Shown one piece after another: positions 44,014 through 60,847 of a stretch of 64,000 nucleotides of DNA. The DNA comes from Bacteroidaceae bacterium. GTDB taxonomy: Bacteria; Bacteroidota; Bacteroidia; Bacteroidales; Bacteroidaceae. How positions within the stretch are numbered: position 1 is the first letter of the stretch; each line of letters opens with the position of its first letter. The DNA is taken from positions 124,001-188,000 of the forward strand of contig JAFWYF010000015.1 of the NCBI GenBank assembly GCA_017522785.1, given 5' to 3'. The translations under genes were made by a program, and so were the position numbers. The notes beneath the pieces were generated by a model. That model worked only from the letters and a program-made list of their open reading frames with translations, did not search any database and was not told the origin of the DNA.

Positions 44014-44070
44014 CAAAGTTTTTGCGAAGTGTTTTCGCACATAATGGTTTTGGAAATAAATAGTACTACT

Positions 44071-46032
44071 ATGATAAAAATTATTTTACTCGAAGGCGCT
44101 GTTCATGAATTCGGCGCAGAGAATTGTGGAAAGTCTATTATAGAGTTAATATCTTCAATAGATCCTAAGATTTTGAATAGAGTTGTTGCCGCAAAAGTAG
44201 ACGGTAATGTAATAGATTTAAGAGATATTCCTGCTGATGGAACAACTGTTGAACTTGTTTCAATAGATAGCAAAGAGGCGCTTCATGTGTTGCGCCATAC
44301 TACAACACACATTATGGCAGAAGCTGTTAAGCATCTTTTTCCCGAGGCTAAACTTACAATTGGTCCTGCAACAGAAAACGGATATTTCTACGATTTCGAT
44401 ACACCTCCTTTTACAAAAGAGAATCTTGCGGATATCGAAAAGGAGATGAAGCGCATCATTAAATCTAATCCTCGTATCGAAAGAAAGGTTGTTTCTCGAG
44501 AAGAGGCTATGGAGATGATGAAAGATGAGCCATACAAATTGGAACTCATAGCCGATATTCCCGAGGGTGAGCGAATAACAATATATTCACAAGACGATTT
44601 TGTCGATTTGTGTATGGGGCCTCACTTGCTTAACACAAAGTTAATTAAAGGTTTTAAATTGTTATCAACCTCTACTGCATATTGGCGTGCAGACAAAAAT
44701 AACGCATCGTTGTCGCGTATCTATGGTACAGCATTCTTTACAAAAGAGGAGTGTGAAGCCTACTTGGCGCATTTAGAGCACATTAAGAATATTGACCATA
44801 ACAAAATTGGTCGTGAAATGGAACTATTTACAACAGTAGATGTGATAGGACAAGGTTTGCCCTTGCTCATGCCTAAAGGTGCAAAAATTATCCAAACATT
44901 GCAACGTTGGATAGAGGACCTAGAGGATAACGAGTGGGGCTACATTCGCACAAAAACTCCCCTCATGGCAAAGAGCGATTTGTATAAAATTTCGGGCCAT
45001 TGGGACCACTACAAAGAGGGTATGTTTGTTCTTGGCGATGAAGAGAAAGACAAAGAGGTGTTTGCCTTGCGTCCTATGACATGTCCTTTCCAATACTATG
45101 TATATAAAGCCGGACAAAAATCATATCGCGACCTGCCTTTACGCTATAGCGAAACATCAACTCTGTTCCGTAACGAAGATTCCGGAGAGATGCATGGTTT
45201 GACACGTGTTCGTCAGTTTACTATCAGTGAGGGACACCTCATTGTGCGCCCCGACCAGATGGTAGAAGAGTTTAAAGGTTGTCTTGCTCTTGCAAAGCAT
45301 GTTATGACAACACTTGGCTTGCAAGATGATGTAACATACGTTCTTGCAAAATGGGACCCCGAAAATCGTGCTAAATATATTGGAGAACCCGAAGTTTGGG
45401 AAGAGACTCAGGAGCATATACGTCAAATGTTGAAAGAGTTAGAAATACCATTTATAGAAGAGGTTGGTGGTGCTGCATTCTATGGTCCGAAGGTGGATAT
45501 TAATGCAAAGAACGTATATGGCAAAGAAGATACCATGATTACAGTTCAATGGGATGCTTTGTTAGCTTGCCAGTTCGATATGACATATATCGACCATAAC
45601 GGAGAGAAGGTACGTCCTTATATAATTCATCGTACCAGCCTTGGATGTTACGAGAGAACACTTGCATGGCTAGTTGAAAAATATGAGGGTAAATTCCCAA
45701 CATGGCTCTGTCCCGAGCAGGTGCGCGTGTTGCCAATCTCGGAAAAATATACCGATTATGCAAATGAGGTTGTAAAAGAGCTCAAACGCAATGGTATACT
45801 TGTTGGGCTTGATGCTCGTTCCGAAAAGATTGGCTATAAGATACGTGACGCGCGTAATAGTCGTGTGCCTTATATGCTTGTTCTTGGACAAAATGAGGCT
45901 GAAAGTAAAACAGTTTCTGTACGTAGTCGTTATGCAGGCGACGAAGGTACAAAACCTTTGCAGGAGTTCATTTCGGCTATTTGTGAAGAGATACGTACAA
46001 AAGAAATAAGAAAAGTAGTTGTTACAGAATAA
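44071..46032 (+). CDS. thrS: Threonyl-tRNA synthetase
   Basis: A 653-residue class II aminoacyl-tRNA synthetase. The order is: N-terminal TGS domain (MIKIILLEGAVHEFG); editing/SAD domain with HxxxH in RHTTTHIMAEAV; catalytic core with the Zn-binding Cys in MTCPFQYY, motif 2 FRNEDSGEMHGLTRVRQF and the His in YIIHRTSLGCYERT; then an anticodon-binding domain (CPEQVRVLPISEKY). The ATG at 44071 is preferred to one 14 codons upstream (44029), since homologues begin with MIKI. It stands ahead of infC-rpmI-rplT as in many Bacteroidales and other bacteria. Confidence 0.96.
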   Translation: MIKIILLEGAVHEFGAENCGKSIIELISSIDPKILNRVVAAKVDGNVIDLRDIPADGTTVELVSIDSKEALHVLRHTTTHIMAEAVKHLFPEAKLTIGPATENGYFYDFDTPPFTKENLADIEKEMKRIIKSNPRIERKVVSREEAMEMMKDEPYKLELIADIPEGERITIYSQDDFVDLCMGPHLLNTKLIKGFKLLSTSTAYWRADKNNASLSRIYGTAFFTKEECEAYLAHLEHIKNIDHNKIGREMELFTTVDVIGQGLPLLMPKGAKIIQTLQRWIEDLEDNEWGYIRTKTPLMAKSDLYKISGHWDHYKEGMFVLGDEEKDKEVFALRPMTCPFQYYVYKAGQKSYRDLPLRYSETSTLFRNEDSGEMHGLTRVRQFTISEGHLIVRPDQMVEEFKGCLALAKHVMTTLGLQDDVTYVLAKWDPENRAKYIGEPEVWEETQEHIRQMLKELEIPFIEEVGGAAFYGPKVDINAKNVYGKEDTMITVQWDALLACQFDMTYIDHNGEKVRPYIIHRTSLGCYERTLAWLVEKYEGKFPTWLCPEQVRVLPISEKYTDYANEVVKELKRNGILVGLDARSEKIGYKIRDARNSRVPYMLVLGQNEAESKTVSVRSRYAGDEGTKPLQEFISAICEEIRTKEIRKVVVTE

Positions 46033-46157: not shown

Positions 46158-46748
46158 ATGAAGAACGACAATCTAAAGAACCAGTACAGAGTAAACGAGC
46201 AAATTCGTGCACACGAAGTACGTATTGTGGGTGATGACATTGAATCAACGGTAATGCCGTTGCATAAAGCGTTAAATCTTGCCGATGAAAAAGGCTTGGA
46301 CTTGGTTGAGATTTCGCCTACTGCAGTTCCACCGGTATGTCGTCTTATAGAGTATTCAAAATTCCTTTATCAACTAAAAAAACGTCAGAAGGAACAAAAG
46401 GCTAAACAGGTTAAAATTGATGTTAAGGAGATACGTTTCGGTCCTCAAACCGATGACCATGATTACAACTTTAAGTTGAAACATGCAATCAGTTTCTTGC
46501 AAGATGGCGACAAAGTAAAAGCCTATGTGTTCTTTAAAGGTCGTTCAATCCTTTTCAAAGAACAGGGCGAAATCCTATTGTTGCGTTTCGCTAAAGACTT
46601 GGAAGATTATGGTAAATTGGAAATGATGCCGTTGCTCGAGGGTAAACGCATGACAATTATGGTTGCTCCCAAAAAAGCGACTCCTGCAAAAAAAGAGAAG
46701 CCTGTAGTGAAACCTCAGGAACCAAAGAAAGAAGAGAAAAGCGAGTAA
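46158..46748 (+). CDS. infC: Translation initiation factor IF-3
   Basis: A 196-residue initiation factor. The N-domain opens with [21 protein letters not shown], the linker is Lys/Gln-rich ([33 protein letters not shown]), and the C-domain binds the 30S subunit ([21 protein letters not shown]). A 20-residue Lys/Pro/Glu tail is common in this phylum. The start is a plain ATG, unlike the AUU of E. coli infC, so the autogenous start-codon discrimination known there is not visible here. First gene of infC-rpmI-rplT. Confidence 0.96.
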
Positions 46749-46797
46749 CGTTGGATAGTACGTTATCGTAATAATATTAACTATTAATTTTTATACA

Positions 46798-46995
46798 ATG
46801 CCAAAAGTTAAAACTAACTCCGGTGCCAAAAAAAGATTCGCTCTTACCGGAACGGGTAAAATTAAAAGAAAACATGCTTATCACAGTCACATCCTGACTA
46901 AGAAAACAAAGAAGCAGAAGAGAAATCTTGTACACTTTACAACTCTCGATTCTGCAAACGTTAGAAGTGTTAAGGAATTGTTGTCATTGCGTTAA
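46798..46995 (+). CDS. rpmI: Ribosomal protein L35
   Basis: A 65-residue, very basic ribosomal protein starting [36 protein letters not shown], the standard L35 pattern. It lies 49 bases after infC and 79 bases before rplT; that second gap contains a three-stem RNA structure. Confidence 0.97.
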
Positions 46996-47012
46996 GTAGA
47001 AAAGTATTAACC

Positions 47013-47059
47013 GAATGCATTAGCCGAAAAGTCCGTCAAAATGGACGGCGCTAACATTC
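47013..47059 (+). promoter_or_regulatory. Three-stem RNA structure between rpmI and rplT (candidate L20 control element)
   Basis: Coaxial stems, from outside in: GAATG (47013-47017) with CATTC (47055-47059); a two-base bulge; TTAGC (47020-47024) with GCTAA (47050-47054); an asymmetric internal loop (8 bases left, 1 base right); CCGTC (47033-47037) with GACGG (47044-47048), closed by a 6-base loop. It ends 15 bases before the rplT ATG. L20 is known in other bacteria to repress its own operon by binding an mRNA mimic of its 23S site; this may be a Bacteroidota version (inference). Confidence 0.55.
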
Positions 47060-47074
47060 AAAAGAATTTAAACT

Positions 47075-47422
47075 ATGCCAAGATCAGTAAATCACGTTGC
47101 TTCAAGAGCAAGAAGAAAGAAAATTTTAGGTTTAACCAGAGGTTACTTTGGTGCACGCAAGAATGTATGGACTGTTGCTAAGAATACTTGGGAAAAAGGT
47201 CTTACATATGCATTCCGCGACCGTCGTAACAAGAAACGCGAATTCCGCGCATTGTGGATACAGCGTATCAATGCAGCTGCTCGTCTCGAGGGTCTTTCAT
47301 ACTCTCAGTTGATGGGTGCATTGCACAAAGCAGGTATCGAAATCAATCGCAAGGTTCTTGCCGATTTGGCTATGAACAACCCTGCTGCGTTCAAAGCAAT
47401 TGTTGATAAAGTTAAGAAGTAA
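47075..47422 (+). CDS. rplT: Ribosomal protein L20
   Basis: A 115-residue primary-binding protein of the 50S subunit. The basic N-terminal arm ([30 protein letters not shown]) and the globular C-domain ([39 protein letters not shown]) are canonical. It ends the infC-rpmI-rplT operon with a perfect terminator 20 bases on. The structured RNA just upstream of its start may give autoregulation. Confidence 0.97.
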
Positions 47423-47442: not shown

Positions 47443-47482
47443 AAAAATAGTGAACGAATTAATTCGTTCACTATTTTTTTTG
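47443..47482 (+). terminator. Terminator of the infC-rpmI-rplT operon
   Basis: A perfect 36-base palindrome (47443-47460/47461-47478) ending in a T-run. The T-run also supplies the TTTG (-33) of the next promoter. Confidence 0.9.
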
Positions 47483-47509
47483 TCTATTTACATTATTTAT
47501 CTATATTTG
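47479..47509 (+). promoter_or_regulatory. Promoter of the GH123-GH33 gene, with a long leader
   Basis: TTTG (47479-47482), 19 bases, TATATTTG (47502-47509). The leader to the ATG at 47749 would be about 230 nt. It includes a direct repeat of GTACTTG and an 8-pair hairpin GATATATG/CATATATC (47661-47668/47676-47683) followed by T-rich sequence, which could act as an attenuator. Confidence 0.55.
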
Positions 47510-47748
47510 AGGCAGTACTTGAATACACTCTGTACTTGCAGTAAAAATATTAGAGTAAAACTTCGTATTTTTCTCTGGTTTTTGGTGTGTTTGAGTCGAA
47601 ATAATATTTTGAACCGATGGCAATTGTATAATTGTCAGGTTGTGTAGGTAATATTTCTGTGATATATGTAAAACTCATATATCCGCTTTTGTTTACTTAT
47701 ATCTGTTGTTGTTAAAAAATGTATATAGATACTTATTTAATTATATTT

Positions 47749-50700
47749 ATGAAACTTAATCGTTTATTTTTACTAATGCTTACTATGCTTCTTTGCATAG
47801 GAGCAAATGCTCAGAGCGACTATGAAGTCTCTCATGGTGCGAATGTGAATGTGAACCACAACGACCATTATCCAAAAGCGGTATCTATTGTTGGTACACA
47901 AAGTAAAAGACAGGTGCTCGACAATATTGCCACAGCTCCAAGGTGTGCGGCATATTTCGACAAGACAACAACTGTATTCGAAGTTAAATCGGGTGAGACA
48001 GTAACTCCAAACATTACAATTAATGGTAATTATATGCACGGGTATGTCTATGTCGATTGGAATAGCGACAAGCAGTTTAAGGCTTCTCTCAGTGGCACAG
48101 GTCCCTATACACAAAATGCTGATAATGAATTGGTGTGTTGGTCGCTATATGGACATAATACCGATGGTGATAGTGGCTGGAATAGTGATGGCACATATTT
48201 GTCTTCGGGTGATGTTATTGCTCCCGGTTCTTTTAAGGTACCTACAGGCCTAGAAGTAGGTTCAACCTATCGTATGCGCTATAAAGTGGAGTGGAACAGC
48301 ATTAATCCTGCCGGTGAACCCGGTAATAAATTTATCACAGATGGTGGCTCAATAATTGATGTTACTCTGAAAATTGCGGGTGTTGCCGAGGATGTAGAGG
48401 AAGGCGAGAAATATCCTATTGAGGATTATGAAGAGCCACGTTTGGATACAACCCCCGACGAAGTTGCATGGAGTACCGTTGCCGATGGTCTGAATGCTTC
48501 GTGGGCATCACGTGATGTACACTATTCTTTGCATGAAGTTCCCGACCTTGTACAGAAAGATGTAGCTACCATACATGCATGGAAGGGCGAGCGTGCGAAT
48601 ATACAGGCTGTATTGTATAGCAAAACAAATCAGGGTATGCTGAGTGTGCGCATGACTGAATGGAAAAAAGCCGGAGTTGCTACAGGTATCAAAGCCGGAG
48701 AAGCTCGTTTTGTGAACTATATCATTACCGATGATTATGATGCATGTAATGCACATCCCATGTCGTTGCCTTTGTGGCTCGTTGCCGATGTTATTGACCA
48801 CGATAAACCACATGCTGTTCTTGCAATGGAGACACGTCCTGTGTGGTGTACTTTGGAAATACCTCGCAATGCCGATGCCGGTGAGTATACCACTGAACTG
48901 GAAATTGTAAATGCAGATAATCAGGTAGTTAAAACACTTACATTGAATATAAATGTAAATAGTCGTTCATTGCCTACTGTTGCCGAGCAAAAATTCCACC
49001 TTGACCTCTGGCAACAACCCTATGCTGTTAGTCGTTACTATAAAGTAGATCGTTGGAGCGATGAACATATTGCAGCATTGCGTCCCTATCTCGAGGCTCT
49101 TGCACGTGCAGGACAACGTACTGTTTCTGCTATCATGTTTTATGAGCCTTGGGGAGAGCAGACACACGATTTGTTCGACCCTATGGTTGAAACTATCAAA
49201 AAGCAAGATGGAACTTGGGCATATAACTATGATATATTTGATAAATATGTTGAGTTGTGTAATTCGTGTGGTATAAACAAACAGATAAACTGTTTCTCTA
49301 TGGTGCCTTGGGATATGAACTTCCGCTATAAAGATGAGGCAACAGGTGAATATAAATTCATTAAGACAACAACTGGAACACAAGAGTACAAAGATTTGTG
49401 GACAAGTTTTCTCAAAGCATTTAAAGAGCACCTCGAGAGCAAAGGCTGGTTTGAGAAGACCAATATAGCAATGGATGAGCGTGCCGAAGCAGATATGCTT
49501 AACGCATACAATATAGCAAGTTCATTAGGATTTAATATGGCTTTGGCTGGTAGCTACCACTCTTCATTGTATAATAAGTTACGCGACTTCTGTGTGGCAT
49601 TGGGAGAGGAAAAACTATTTACTCCTGAGCAACTTGCATACAGAAAGGCAAACAACATGATTACAACCGTTTACACAAGTTGTGCAAACGCAGAACCTAA
49701 TATCTATACAAATTCATATCCCGCAGAGGCTACATATCTTCCTATCTATGCGGCTGCGAATAATGTAGATGGTTATTTGCATTGGGCATGGATAAATTGG
49801 CACGAAACTCCGCTTACAGATAGCCGTTTCCGTAAATTTGGTTCCGGAGATACCTATTTCTACTATCCCGGAAACCGTTCTAGTATTCGCTTCGAGCGTC
49901 TAATTGAGGGTATTCATCAGTTCGAAAAGATACATATCTTGCGCGATGAGTACAAAAACGATTCTGAGAAACTTGATGCTCTCGATGCATTGCTCTCTCG
50001 TTTCAAAAACAGTTCTATAGCAGGTGAACAGTGTGCTAAATATGTAAATGATATAGAGGATTTCTTAAATGGTCTTGAGGTTGAGATTCCTATGCCAAAA
50101 GAGGTAACAACTGGCTACTATCACTTGGTAAGCAGAGCTACAGGACGTTCTGAATATCTCTATAACGATGCACTTTTGAGTGGAAATAACAATAAATTTA
50201 CACTTCAATCGAACAATCTTGTATATTCAAATAATGGAATTTGGCACATTACAGTAAAAGATGGTAATAAGTTGGCAGTAAAGAATGGCGACGGTAATCC
50301 AATTGTTGCCGGTGCTAATTGGGCCGCTTCAATTGCAGGTACATTCAAAGAGTTAACAGTAGGTGATAAATTCGAAGTTGGTGAATATATGTACTACTAT
50401 TTTACCGAGGCGCTTAACTGTACAAATGGTAGCAATAACTTTAAAATAGGTGGAGCCGAGTTTCTTACTACTTGGACCGATGGAGGTAGCGACAAAGAAG
50501 ATAACCAATGGCGATTCGAGCCTGTCGATGTTGAGGGAATGCACATATACGATGTTGTAATTGAGGGCGATGATGATGTCTATGTAACATTCCAAAATGG
50601 CGCAAGACAAGAGAAGGCATTCAATGGCGGATTCTTTATCTCTAGTAACAAAATAACAAGTGATGCACTTTCTGTTGCAATGAAGGGTAATATACTTAAC

Positions 50701-52773
50701 GGTGCAACTGTATCAGTTGAAGAAAATACTATTAAGGTTACAGACGTAAAGGTGGCTGTTGCTCCAACAAAGCAGGACCTTTTCAACACAAGTAAAGGCG
50801 ATGGCGTCGTTCCTCCTTATCGTATTCCCGGTATTGCAACAACAAAGAGCGGACGTCTTATAGCTGTGGCTTCGCGCTTGGTATGTGGAACCGACCCCGG
50901 ATATGGTCAGGTGGATGTTGTGTGTCGCATAAGTGATAACAATGGTGAAACTTGGAGCGAAATGAAAGATGTTGCAGTGGGAGATGGTAAGACTTCTGCT
51001 ACTGTAAACTATTTTGAAACAGCATTTGGCGATCCCGCGATTGTTGCCGATCGAACAAGTAACGAGGTAATGGTGCTTGCTGTTGCAGGCTGTACTGTGT
51101 ATGGCAATGGCAATACTACTCGTCAGAATCCAAACCTTATAGCTCTTATCCGTAGTAAAGACAATGGCGATACATGGGAAAAACCTATAAATGTTACAGA
51201 ACAAATTTATAGTCTGTTCGACGACGGAAATCCTATTCAGGCGGCATTTGTGGCTGGTGGTAAAGTGTTCCAAAGCCGTATTGTGAAAAAAGGAGATTAT
51301 TACCGTGTTTATGCGGCAATGTGTGCTCGCCCCAATGGTAATCGTGTTATCTACTCCGATGACTTTGGTGCTACATGGCATGCTCTTGGCGGTGCTTCGG
51401 CTCTTCCGGCACAAGGAGGTGATGAACCAAAGTGCGAAGAGCTACCCGATGGTCGAGTAATTTTGTCGAGTAGAGTAGGTGGTGGTCGTATATACAACAT
51501 ATATACATACAGCAACACTCTTGAGGGTGAAGGCGAGTGGAGTACCGAGGTTAAGAGTACATTCAGTGGCTCCGGACTTGTTCCCGGTGGCAACTCAACC
51601 AATGGAGAGGCTCTTGTGATACCTGTACAACGCAATGCCGATAAAAAAGAGATGTATCTCTTATTACAATCTTTGCCAACAGGTAGTGGTCGTACAGATG
51701 TTAGCATTTTCTACAAGGAGTTGAATAACTTAAATGATATGAATAGCGTTGCAAACCTTGCAAAAGATTGGAATGGCTATTATCAGGTAAGTTCAACATC
51801 TTCGGCATACAGTTCAATGGATTTGCAGGCAGATAACCGAATTGGTTTTATCTATGAAGAGACCTTAACCGGTTTTGGAAAACGCAATAATCCTATATCT
51901 ACATCTTTCCCAACCGGCTCGGGACAACACAACTTCGATGGTTTCGACAATTTGTATGTAGCATATGACCTTGAATATATCACCAATGGTGCATATAGTG
52001 TAAAGAAAAATGTTGACCGTCGTGCATTTTTGGTAAACTATTTCAATGCTCTTGCTGAGTCTTCAGAGATTTCAGATGAACTGAAACAGGCTATTGGCGT
52101 AGCTGTCAATAAATTAAGTGAAGAGCCTACAACAAAAGAGATAGACAATATCTATGGCTTGTTTGCCGGTGAAGCTCCTGCCGACAAGTGGGACGGCAAG
52201 GTGCTCACTTTTACCAATATGCAACAAAACGGTACAGAGTATACATTATATATTGATGATAATAATACTTTGAATTTAAGTACTAAGAGTGCAGAGGAAC
52301 TTGGCTCTGCTGCTGAATTTCAATGTAAAAAAGAGACTAGTGAAAAGTATAGCTTTTATAACGATGCAAAAAAGTTGTATATGATTTGGCGTGCTGGAAA
52401 TAATTATGGATATAACAATAATAGTGGAACTTTGGCCGAATATAATGCAACATATTGCGATTGGAGTATAAATGACGGCAGTGAATTGCTTGAGAATTCC
52501 TATTATATTGTCAGTAAAAGAAATGATGGAACTACCGATGGCGCTATCATATTGATGGCTACAGGAGTGTTTGATTCTTGGGGAAATTCTGCCGGATATA
52601 GTGATAGGTATAGCAACTTGTTTCGTATCGATGTAAAAGAAATTGAGACAGGAATTAATGCAGTAGTTGATGTTGTATCAGACGGTAAAATATATGACTT
52701 GACAGGACGTGTCGTTGAGAATGTTACTAAAGGGATATATATTATAAGTGGAAAGAAGGTTTTTGTAAAGTAA
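47749..52773 (+). CDS. Secreted multidomain enzyme: GEVED-type + GH123-like + GH33 sialidase
   Basis: A 1674-residue exported enzyme. Signal peptide (cleaved after GANAQ); a GEVED-like domain (about 75-210, YVYVDWNSDKQFK); a GH123/DUF4091-like beta-N-acetylgalactosaminidase module (about 240-780) with an adjacent acidic pair D576-E577 in IAMDERAEADM, as expected for substrate-assisted GH123 enzymes; and a ricin-like stretch (about 790-900). A GH33 sialidase propeller (about 1010-1420) then starts with YRIPG (R1025) and has Asp boxes SDNNGETW, SKDNGDTW and SDDFGATW. A second ricin-like part and a type IX-like tail (IYDLTGRVV, GIYIISGKKV) close it. The ATG at 47749 fits the signal peptide better than the one at 47719. 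Confidence 0.88.
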   Translation: MKLNRLFLLMLTMLLCIGANAQSDYEVSHGANVNVNHNDHYPKAVSIVGTQSKRQVLDNIATAPRCAAYFDKTTTVFEVKSGETVTPNITINGNYMHGYVYVDWNSDKQFKASLSGTGPYTQNADNELVCWSLYGHNTDGDSGWNSDGTYLSSGDVIAPGSFKVPTGLEVGSTYRMRYKVEWNSINPAGEPGNKFITDGGSIIDVTLKIAGVAEDVEEGEKYPIEDYEEPRLDTTPDEVAWSTVADGLNASWASRDVHYSLHEVPDLVQKDVATIHAWKGERANIQAVLYSKTNQGMLSVRMTEWKKAGVATGIKAGEARFVNYIITDDYDACNAHPMSLPLWLVADVIDHDKPHAVLAMETRPVWCTLEIPRNADAGEYTTELEIVNADNQVVKTLTLNINVNSRSLPTVAEQKFHLDLWQQPYAVSRYYKVDRWSDEHIAALRPYLEALARAGQRTVSAIMFYEPWGEQTHDLFDPMVETIKKQDGTWAYNYDIFDKYVELCNSCGINKQINCFSMVPWDMNFRYKDEATGEYKFIKTTTGTQEYKDLWTSFLKAFKEHLESKGWFEKTNIAMDERAEADMLNAYNIASSLGFNMALAGSYHSSLYNKLRDFCVALGEEKLFTPEQLAYRKANNMITTVYTSCANAEPNIYTNSYPAEATYLPIYAAANNVDGYLHWAWINWHETPLTDSRFRKFGSGDTYFYYPGNRSSIRFERLIEGIHQFEKIHILRDEYKNDSEKLDALDALLSRFKNSSIAGEQCAKYVNDIEDFLNGLEVEIPMPKEVTTGYYHLVSRATGRSEYLYNDALLSGNNNKFTLQSNNLVYSNNGIWHITVKDGNKLAVKNGDGNPIVAGANWAASIAGTFKELTVGDKFEVGEYMYYYFTEALNCTNGSNNFKIGGAEFLTTWTDGGSDKEDNQWRFEPVDVEGMHIYDVVIEGDDDVYVTFQNGARQEKAFNGGFFISSNKITSDALSVAMKGNILNGATVSVEENTIKVTDVKVAVAPTKQDLFNTSKGDGVVPPYRIPGIATTKSGRLIAVASRLVCGTDPGYGQVDVVCRISDNNGETWSEMKDVAVGDGKTSATVNYFETAFGDPAIVADRTSNEVMVLAVAGCTVYGNGNTTRQNPNLIALIRSKDNGDTWEKPINVTEQIYSLFDDGNPIQAAFVAGGKVFQSRIVKKGDYYRVYAAMCARPNGNRVIYSDDFGATWHALGGASALPAQGGDEPKCEELPDGRVILSSRVGGGRIYNIYTYSNTLEGEGEWSTEVKSTFSGSGLVPGGNSTNGEALVIPVQRNADKKEMYLLLQSLPTGSGRTDVSIFYKELNNLNDMNSVANLAKDWNGYYQVSSTSSAYSSMDLQADNRIGFIYEETLTGFGKRNNPISTSFPTGSGQHNFDGFDNLYVAYDLEYITNGAYSVKKNVDRRAFLVNYFNALAESSEISDELKQAIGVAVNKLSEEPTTKEIDNIYGLFAGEAPADKWDGKVLTFTNMQQNGTEYTLYIDDNNTLNLSTKSAEELGSAAEFQCKKETSEKYSFYNDAKKLYMIWRAGNNYGYNNNSGTLAEYNATYCDWSINDGSELLENSYYIVSKRNDGTTDGAIILMATGVFDSWGNSAGYSDRYSNLFRIDVKEIETGINAVVDVVSDGKIYDLTGRVVENVTKGIYIISGKKVFVK

Positions 52774-52782
52774 TCTGTTAAT

Positions 52783-52830
52783 ACACAAAAAGAATGGGAA
52801 AGTTGAAAAACTTTCCCATTCTTTTTGTGT
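52783..52830 (+). terminator. Terminator after the GH123-GH33 gene
   Basis: 22-pair perfect stem (52783-52804/52809-52830), 4-base loop, ending in T-rich sequence. Confidence 0.9.
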
Positions 52831-52882
52831 ATTTTTCTTTAACTTGTTTTATTCTATTTTAGCAAAAAAAACATATCAAAAT

Positions 52883-52913
52883 TTTGTTTTTATATAAAAC
52901 AGTGTTATGTTTG
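52883..52913 (+). promoter_or_regulatory. Promoter of the 6S-like RNA
   Basis: TTTG (52883-52886), 19 bases, TATGTTTG (52906-52913). The predicted start, about 52919-52920, is the first base pair of the RNA closing stem. Confidence 0.65.
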
Positions 52914-52918
52914 CGTAT

Positions 52919-53105
52919 GGTTTGTTGTATCGATTGACTGGGAAACTCATCAATTATATTTGAAAACCGAGATGCCTTCAATTGTTCAATGGCGGGCCAC
53001 GCCTTCGGGTAGTTTTCGAGAACCGGTGGATTACAAAGAACAGGAGCGCTCAAATCTTATTTTCTCGGAGTTTCATCGTCTTCTTCGTACAGCAAACCTT
53101 TTTTT
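52919..53105 (+). ncRNA. ssrS: 6S-like RNA (candidate ssrS / Bacteroidales-1 type)
   Basis: A rod-shaped RNA of about 187 nt in the 368-base gap between two glycosidase genes. The ends pair over 11 bases: GGTTTGTTGTA (52919-52929) with TACAGCAAACC (53088-53098), followed by seven Ts. Further in, GAAACTC (52942-52948) pairs with GAGTTTC (53068-53074), CGAGA (52968-52972) with TCTCG (53063-53067), and TGTTC (52983-52987) with GAACA (53038-53042). A GCC-TTCG-GGT hairpin lies near the tip. A closed long hairpin with internal bubbles, own promoter and T-run is the plan of 6S RNA, which binds sigma70-type RNA polymerase. Family assignment is by architecture and size only. Confidence 0.6.
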
Positions 53106-53108
53106 ATA

Positions 53109-53137
53109 AATAAAGACTTGTATCGCAAGTCTTTATT
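53109..53137 (-). terminator. Terminator of the GH20 gene
   Basis: 12-pair perfect stem (53109-53120/53126-53137) just after the stop codon at 53142; on the minus strand an A/T-rich tail follows. Confidence 0.75.
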
Positions 53138-53141
53138 ATTT

Positions 53142-54764
53142 TTATTTTGCTATCTCAAATGGAACCCTGAACGATATTCCACATTTCATTAAATCTGTAA
53201 GGTTGGGATAAAGTCTCTCTTTGAATGAGTCCCACTCTCTATTTTTCATCTCGCTCCATCCAGCTTCGGCAATTGCAATGCCTCGTGGAAAAAACATATA
53301 ATTGACTCTGTTTATGTCCTTAATGGCTTCGGCCCACATTGTTGCCATGACTCCCAAAATGTGCTCTTGTTTGTCGTGTGGCAATCCGTAGCTTGGGTCT
53401 AATTTATAACAATTTTCGAGGCTGGTAATTGGCATTCCCCAATTGTTGAACTCGGGAAGGTCGTTCTTCCATTGTGGGTAGTCGAGGTATGTGTACTCTC
53501 CCGGTGCCATAATAAGTTTATGACCATGCTCTCGAGTGAGTTCTATACATTTTGGTGTTAAACCGTTGCGCCATGTTACCAATGTAACATCCGAAGGGTA
53601 GGGAAACAGATAATCGTTTGCGGGTGGGTATATGTTATCTAACTCACACCATAATATTGCTTCTTTTCCATTTTTGCGTATAGCCGAGAGAATCTTCTCG
53701 AAGAAGATATTCATTAGTTCCGATGGCTTCTGATATCCTGCTTTGTGCATTAAAGCGAGGCATGAGTCGCATTTTGCCCAATTATCTTTTATTGCAGCTT
53801 CGTCTCCTCCCAAATGTATCTGTTTTGATGGGAAAATATCTGCAACTTCTTTTATAATATCCTCATAAATTTTGTATACATCGTTGTTGTTTGCACATAA
53901 CATCATGTTTGTTGTGCTACCCAAATCTTTCTTTTCGTTATGACGAAATGGACATCCTAATCGTGGGTATGCCGATAGAATCGCAACCGAGTGTCCCGGT
54001 ATATCCAGCTCCGGAATTATCTCAATATGTCGCTCTTGTGCATATCTGACAATCTCTTTTAGTTCTTCTTGTGTGTAGAATCCGTTGTCGGGGCCATTGT
54101 TGCTTCCATTAGGATTGCGGAATGCTCCAATCTTTATAAGCTCTGGATGACTCTTAATTTCAATGCGCCAACCTTGATCATCTGTTAAATGCAGTTGTAA
54201 TACGTTATATTTGAATTTTGCTATTTGGTCTATAAATAGTTTTACATCTTCTACCGGTAGAAAATGTCGTGCCGGGTCTAGCATAACTGCTCTATGGCTG
54301 TAACGTGGCTTGTCCTCTATTCTTATTTGTGCAATTTTTCCATTTTTGCTGTTTGTTGCATCGCCAAGCATTATTTGGTCTAGTGTTTGAAGAGCATAAT
54401 AAACACCGGCTTTACCACCTTTAATTGTGATATATTTGGATTTTATATCTATCGTATATTCTTCATTGTCAAATGTATTCGCATCCTCTGTTAAAGAGAT
54501 AGTATAAGGCTTTTTACACTCTTCAATGGTTATTCCGCATCTTTTGCTAATAATGTGTGATAGTTCTTGTCTAATAAATGTGTCGTTCGATGTGTTACAC
54601 TCTATTTTTCCTACTTTATTCAGGTCAAAAGGCTTTTTGTTATCCCTTAATTCTATCTTATTTGGTATTGGAATTAGTGCCGATATGGAGTTTTGTGCTA
54701 TTGATTTTGCGATGCATAGGATTAGCAATAACATGCAAATGCATAATTGTCTTAAGGTCTTCAT
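53142..54764 (-). CDS. Beta-N-acetylhexosaminidase (GH20)
   Basis: A 540-residue exported glycosidase that releases terminal beta-GlcNAc or beta-GalNAc. Signal peptide (about 1-23, ending SIAQ); N-terminal GH20b alpha/beta domain (to about 150); catalytic TIM barrel beginning YSHRAVMLDPARHFLPVEDVKLFIDQIAKFKYNVLQLHLTDDQGWRIEI. The catalytic Asp-Glu pair is in HLGGDEAAIKDNW, and substrate-binding Trp residues (ILWCEL, VTWRNG, MWAEA) follow. It lies 65 bases downstream of mltG on the same strand and may share its transcript. With the sialidase fusion nearby it fits stepwise removal of host-glycan ends. Confidence 0.94.
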   Translation of the reverse strand: MKTLRQLCICMLLLILCIAKSIAQNSISALIPIPNKIELRDNKKPFDLNKVGKIECNTSNDTFIRQELSHIISKRCGITIEECKKPYTISLTEDANTFDNEEYTIDIKSKYITIKGGKAGVYYALQTLDQIMLGDATNSKNGKIAQIRIEDKPRYSHRAVMLDPARHFLPVEDVKLFIDQIAKFKYNVLQLHLTDDQGWRIEIKSHPELIKIGAFRNPNGSNNGPDNGFYTQEELKEIVRYAQERHIEIIPELDIPGHSVAILSAYPRLGCPFRHNEKKDLGSTTNMMLCANNNDVYKIYEDIIKEVADIFPSKQIHLGGDEAAIKDNWAKCDSCLALMHKAGYQKPSELMNIFFEKILSAIRKNGKEAILWCELDNIYPPANDYLFPYPSDVTLVTWRNGLTPKCIELTREHGHKLIMAPGEYTYLDYPQWKNDLPEFNNWGMPITSLENCYKLDPSYGLPHDKQEHILGVMATMWAEAIKDINRVNYMFFPRGIAIAEAGWSEMKNREWDSFKERLYPNLTDLMKCGISFRVPFEIAK

Positions 54765-60773: not shown

Positions 60774-60847
60774 CGGGGTGTAGCGCAGTCCGGTAGCGCA
60801 CCTGGTTTGGGACCAGGTGGTCGCAGGTTCGAATCCTGTCGCCCCGA
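60774..60847 (+). tRNA. tRNA-Pro (anticodon TGG)
   Basis: A full cloverleaf: acceptor CGGGGTG (60774-60780) with CGCCCCG (60840-60846) and discriminator A; D arm GCGC..GCGC; anticodon stem CCTGG/CCAGG with loop TTTGGGA, giving anticodon TGG; T arm CAGG-TTCGAAT-CCTG. CCA is not encoded. A terminator follows immediately. Confidence 0.97.

Follow-up and report, generated by a model that had tools for sequence, protein, structure and literature searches.

A predicted 6S RNA gene of the Bacteroidales-1 family in an uncultured gut Bacteroidaceae species and its relation to 6S-Flavo RNA

Introduction

What is encoded between two glycosidase genes in a 64-kb window of DNA from an uncultured gut Bacteroidaceae species? 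The window is the whole stretch of 64,000 nucleotides that was analysed. Working from its letters, the initial annotation had proposed a rod-shaped, 6S-like regulatory RNA of the kind called the Bacteroidales-1 motif. This motif was reported by Weinberg 2010 (PMC2864571), who listed it as an RNA of undetermined role. 6S RNA has been detected in Bacteroides (Ryan 2020, PMC7366714) and in Flavobacterium psychrophilum (PMC9723704). Judged from sequence comparison, the locus almost certainly holds this species' one 6S RNA gene, the equivalent of ssrS.

Identity and copy number

Searching the entire window against Rfam 15 returned only two matches, to RF01693 (Bacteroidales-1) and to one tRNA. RF01693 matched positions 52923-53100 of the forward strand at 117.4 bits (E 8.2e-19), with a gathering cut-off of 60 bits. 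The match spanned model positions 1-179, end to end. Rfam's own description of this family reads "6S-Bacteroidales RNA suggested".

52919-53105, forward strand: 6S RNA gene (Bacteroidales-1, RF01693), predicted transcript of 187 nt with predicted ends; Rfam match at 52923-53100
60774-60847, forward strand: tRNA gene, the sole other above-cut-off Rfam match in the window

A genome-wide search found RF01693 as a single copy in the source genome. The RF01693 score, together with the covarying fold in relatives described below, shows that the initial annotation had named the RNA correctly as Bacteroidales-1 or 6S, and its length of about 187 nt agrees with the span 52919-53105. It had also proposed a covariance-model check, which held for Bacteroidales-1 (RF01693, E 8e-19) but not for the general 6S model: RF00013, which describes 6S RNA of Proteobacteria and Firmicutes, gave no match to the locus even at E 10. 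A covariance model built from 49 Bacteroidales sequences with the closing stem included (R1) covered 52918-53100 at 174 bits, the window sequence being itself among those 49. The kind of RNA is already known, and the locus is an ordinary 6S RNA gene, because the presence of a 6S RNA is expected here.

The window RNA has the conserved blocks GGGAAACUCAUCA, AAUGGCGGGCCAC, GGAUUAC, CUCAAAUC and GGAGUUU in common with RF01693. While the Rfam model draws its first 54 and last ~50 positions unpaired, the ends of the window RNA pair as three helices, P1, P2 and P3. Compared with the RNAs of RF00013 (E. coli ssrS, B. subtilis 6S-1), it is a similarly long rod, closed at its ends and interrupted by internal bubbles, and the same mechanism is proposed. 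It differs in that its bubble is split by P3, in the predicted fold, into two offset bulges.

Between 52756 and 52873, models of microRNA, snoRNA and other Rfam families matched locally; these matches, mostly on the hairpin at 52782-52831, were rejected as chance fits to a long stem. The hairpin is a long, nearly perfect inverted repeat followed by a T-rich tail, and it accounts for many spurious Rfam microRNA matches. It lies after the upstream glycosidase gene (GH123), whose terminator it probably is.

Promoter

The RNA is preceded by a promoter-like pair of elements separated by a spacer of 19 nt.

52883-52886, forward strand: -33 element TTTG, matched by a TTTG-like element in most relatives
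52906-52913, forward strand: -7 element TATGTTTG (consensus TAnnTTTG), kept 6/6 in 84 of 87 loci

Taken alone, a single exact promoter pair in the window is weak evidence, as the exact pair occurs 6 times in the 64 kb against 1.8 expected. Its conservation was examined at 87 Bacteroidales loci. In 84 of them, TAnnTTTG was present in the 60 nt before the RNA; in shuffled upstream regions it turned up in 6.2 loci on average and never in more than 12. In 81 of the loci, a TTTG-like element (at least 3 of 4 bases) preceded the -7 box by 17-23 nt, and TAnnTTTG combined with a TTTG-like partner 18-21 nt upstream was found in 76 (shuffles: mean 1.3, maximum 4). We take the promoter reading to be right because conservation across the 87 loci is far above that in the shuffles. 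The -33/-7 pair with 19-base spacing in the initial annotation is where it had been placed, and its -7 element is conserved in 84 of 87 loci. On these sequence grounds, the RNA gene has its own Bacteroidota-type promoter and is predicted to be an independent transcript.

Gene neighbourhood

The genes around the RNA were compared with those at the other loci.

44029-46032: thrS
46158-47422, forward strand: infC-rpmI-rplT, the commonest upstream neighbours of the RNA in relatives
47075-47422: rplT (ribosomal protein L20)
47719-52773, forward strand: GH123/BNR protein gene, between rplT and the RNA in the lineage of the window
53142-54764, reverse strand: GH20 (hexosaminidase-type) gene, convergent; 11 of the 87 loci have a neighbour from this cluster

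In 46 of the 87 loci, rplT lies upstream of the RNA on the same strand, typically 125-300 nt away and usually after infC and rpmI. This gene order argues for orthology. At five loci (L002, L003, L004, L008, L021) rplT is directly upstream of the RNA and the GH20 gene downstream. The 1684-aa product of 47719-52773 combines a GH123 catalytic domain with BNR repeats and has no counterpart among the neighbours of the other loci. For this reason its gene looks inserted, and comparison of gene order suggests that this 5-kb gene came to lie between rplT and the RNA. The position between two glycosidase genes, as first annotated, is correct in that GH123 lies upstream and GH20 downstream. It is nonetheless incidental: in relatives, rplT is found upstream more often than any other gene, and the flanking by glycosidases is a local accident because the 5-kb GH123 gene separates rplT from the RNA here.

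Two further features of the GH123 gene were observed. The C-terminus of its 1684-aa product resembles, in our reading, a type IX secretion sorting domain, and a promoter-like pair of its own precedes the gene at 47479-47509.

The 3' end

Two candidate ends of the transcript follow one another closely.

53099-53105, forward strand: T7 tract, directly after the 3' arm of P1
53109-53137, forward strand: candidate terminator, a hairpin of 13 pairs and a T-rich tail, in the gap that separates the RNA from the convergent GH20 gene

The T7 tract is present right after the 3' arm, as the initial annotation had it, but the hairpin at 53109-53137 is a second terminator candidate. The tract need not be the true 3' end because this terminator-like hairpin begins 4 nt later. 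The transcript may run to the hairpin and then be trimmed. A hairpin of at least 7 pairs just downstream of the RNA was found in 62 of 87 loci, a count made without a shuffle control.

Fold and covariation

Our analysis shows a predicted RNA of ~187 nt that is closed by pairing of its two ends; further in come short helices, which two offset conserved bulges separate, and then an apical arm.

52919-52929, forward strand: closing stem P1, 5' arm, pairing with 53088-53098
52942-52948, forward strand: P2 5' arm GAAACUC, pairing with 53068-53074 GAGUUUC
52949-52967, forward strand: 5' bulge AUCAA..., first bases nearly invariant; candidate pRNA template strand
52968-52972, forward strand: P3 5' arm CGAGA, pairing with 53063-53067 UCUCG
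52976-53047, forward strand: apical arm, P4/P5 and two small hairpins; the portion paired in Rfam's model
53048-53062, forward strand: 3' bulge, which contains the conserved block CUCAAAUC; a candidate for the second template strand
53063-53074, forward strand: P3 and P2 3' arms UCUCGGAGUUUC, pairing in relatives
53088-53098, forward strand: closing stem P1, 3' arm, pairing with 52919-52929

The 11-pair stem joining both ends was found where the initial annotation had drawn it, and the ordered inner stems separated by bubbles that it described appear in the predicted fold (MFE -53.4 kcal/mol). This energy corresponds to z = -2.67 against dinucleotide shuffles, of which 2 of 200 fold as well, such that folding energy alone is modest evidence for the modelled structure. 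P1 comprises 11 pairs, one of them G-U, and begins 6 nt after the -7 element. Within the genus it is longer (GGUUUUGCUGUA), starts ~6 nt past the -7 box, and is paired in 100% of cells.

Compensatory changes in relatives, which the initial annotation had named as support for the fold, were found: across the order, 29 of 44 pairs changed on both sides over 49 sequences. The covariation score of these 49 sequences was 0.325, compared with 0.170 for shuffles and at most 0.122 for controls with slid partners. Over 30 genus sequences the full structure was paired in 96.1% of cells, and in 33-54% when partners were slid by 1-3 columns, a comparison biased toward a structure read from one member sequence, as here. 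The double changes in P1 are safer evidence than the slid-control comparison. All 11 of its pairs changed on both sides over the 49 Bacteroidales sequences, and its six inner pairs were paired in every sequence.

P2 and P3 scarcely vary within Bacteroidales, so their covariation within the order is uninformative. The sole covariation support for P2 is its outer pair, which changes from G-C to U-A in 6S-Flavo. P1, P2, and P3 are additions to Rfam's structure. In the predicted fold, the central bubble consists of two offset conserved bulges divided by P3 and becomes one bubble only if P3 opens. One 6S-Flavo relative folds with more symmetric internal loops.

Relation to 6S-Flavo

Rfam 15 keeps RF01693 and RF01685 (6S-Flavo) apart, and neither belongs to a clan. 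Matched against Bacteroidales RNAs, RF01685 scored 19.7 bits at the window locus and 22-23 bits in three relatives. These cross-matches of 19.7-23 bits were always full length and in register but under the cut-off of 85, so that the window RNA is not a member of RF01685 by score. In the other direction, R1 matched 13 of 13 loci fetched with 6S-Flavo at the right position, on the right strand, and at full length. The E values ranged from 7e-11 to 0.03, with 12 of 13 below 0.001; the best misplaced match had E 0.012.

When 12 Flavo loci were aligned with two Bacteroidales sequences, 209 of 210 cells (99.5%) of P1 and P2 were paired, and 7 of 15 P1/P2 pairs changed on both sides. Among these changes, P1 showed a switch from G-C to C-G, and the outer P2 pair went from G-C to U-A. 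The closing stem and P2, with their compensatory changes, are thus common to both families, as are the ACUCA, CUCAAA-like and GAGUUU blocks, whereas the apical arm of 6S-Flavo is shorter than that of Bacteroidales-1. For one 6S-Flavo member the fold is a closed rod (z = -6.1).

Gene order differs between the two: the 6S-Flavo loci examined are upstream of rny and beside zapA, while Bacteroidales loci stand after rplT. The rny gene was downstream in 12 of 13 6S-Flavo loci, and zapA was upstream in all four loci examined for it, with domains confirmed. In E. coli, zapA is a neighbour of ssrS as well. A zapA/rny gene order was rejected for the Bacteroidales loci, as neither gene was found in the 1.5-kb flanks of any of the 87. 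The R1 matches, the P1/P2 pairing, and the gene-order evidence lead us to treat RF01693 and RF01685 as one family. We consider it very probable that they form a single Bacteroidota 6S family, with P1 and P2 common to both though unpaired in both Rfam models, and with the gene at the side of zapA/rny in genomes of the Flavobacteria type and, in many Bacteroidales, following infC-rpmI-rplT.

Alternative explanations

Instead of being a 6S RNA, Bacteroidales-1 could be a structured small RNA of another function, acting for example by base-pairing with mRNA or as a 3' UTR element of the rplT operon. The missing RF00013 match, the undetermined role given to the motif by Weinberg 2010 (PMC2864571), and the frequent position just after rplT on the same strand are in keeping with such a function. 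However, the rplT link is broken here by a 5-kb gene and the RNA is still intact and keeps its own promoter, which disfavours a 3' UTR element. That promoter is conserved, the RNA is homologous to 6S-Flavo, which adjoins zapA, and Ryan 2020 (PMC7366714) found a 6S RNA and pRNAs in Bacteroides. We regard a function other than 6S as very improbable.

The reading of the locus as a decayed or chance structure, or as a piece of a broken protein gene on the minus strand, could draw on the modest folding z-score of -2.67 and on a 64-aa frame at 52859-53053 (reverse strand). As a gene this frame was rejected, as it has no Pfam match, in line with the initial annotation, which had held the RNA to be the better explanation of the opposite-strand frame. 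The strong covariance-model match and the covariation already refute this reading, the conserved promoter also speaks against it, and its probability is negligible. A 6S RNA gene accounts for the locus best.

Proposed mechanism and significance

From established knowledge of 6S RNA, the rod would mimic an open promoter and occupy the RNA polymerase holoenzyme carrying the housekeeping sigma factor, which would lower transcription as nutrients become scarce. Once the cell recovers, the polymerase would copy a bulge strand into a short product RNA (pRNA), which would refold the 6S RNA and free the polymerase. Two pRNA classes, pRNA and pRNA*, have been reported for B. thetaiotaomicron (PMC7366714). 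The AUCAA bulge (from 52949) and/or CUCAAAUC (within 53048-53062) would be the likely templates for these two classes.

6S RNA is a global brake on transcription. The closing stem, the 6S-Flavo link, and the gene order are annotation refinements. As by-products, the analysis offers a more complete structure of the Bacteroidales family, evidence that two Bacteroidota Rfam families are one, and, in the position after rplT, a gene-order marker that is useful for locating the RNA. These help annotation, and the bulges give concrete sequences for seeking pRNA starts in Bacteroides.

Distribution among genomes

At genus level 33 of 44 genomes matched RF01693, at family level 146 of 151, and at order level 55 of 198; Bacteroidales-1 normally occurs once per genome in Bacteroidales. 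With R1 the order count rose modestly from 55 to 63 of 198, a number perhaps held down by the first-look search filter. Among named genomes, an exact 21-base core was found nearly always in Bacteroidaceae or other Bacteroidales, including Phocaeicola vulgatus ATCC 8482. Two other records carried it (the L116/L184 pair): one named Clostridium sp., which is probably misnamed, and Paracoccus kondratievae, probably a chance match.

Eleven of the 44 genus genomes had no RF01693 match, three of them at least 90% complete. In two of these three (G022, G026) a protein search did not find rplT, and as rplT is absent too, sequence is likely missing from both. Loss of the RNA is possible in some of the genus genomes that had no match. 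Neither a whole-genome search with R1 nor an unfiltered scan beside rplT revealed a hidden 6S RNA in the genomes that had no match. Five genomes at least 90% complete (G099, G177, G022, G026, G037) had no detectable Bacteroidales-1 RNA. In G099 and G177 (loci L264 and L266), rplT and 1.5 kb of downstream sequence are present and the RNA is not there, so it is elsewhere, absent, or missing from the assembly. One genome, G106, had three RF01693 matches of differing scores on contigs C107, C214, and C219, which likely reflect a mixed bin and not real copies.
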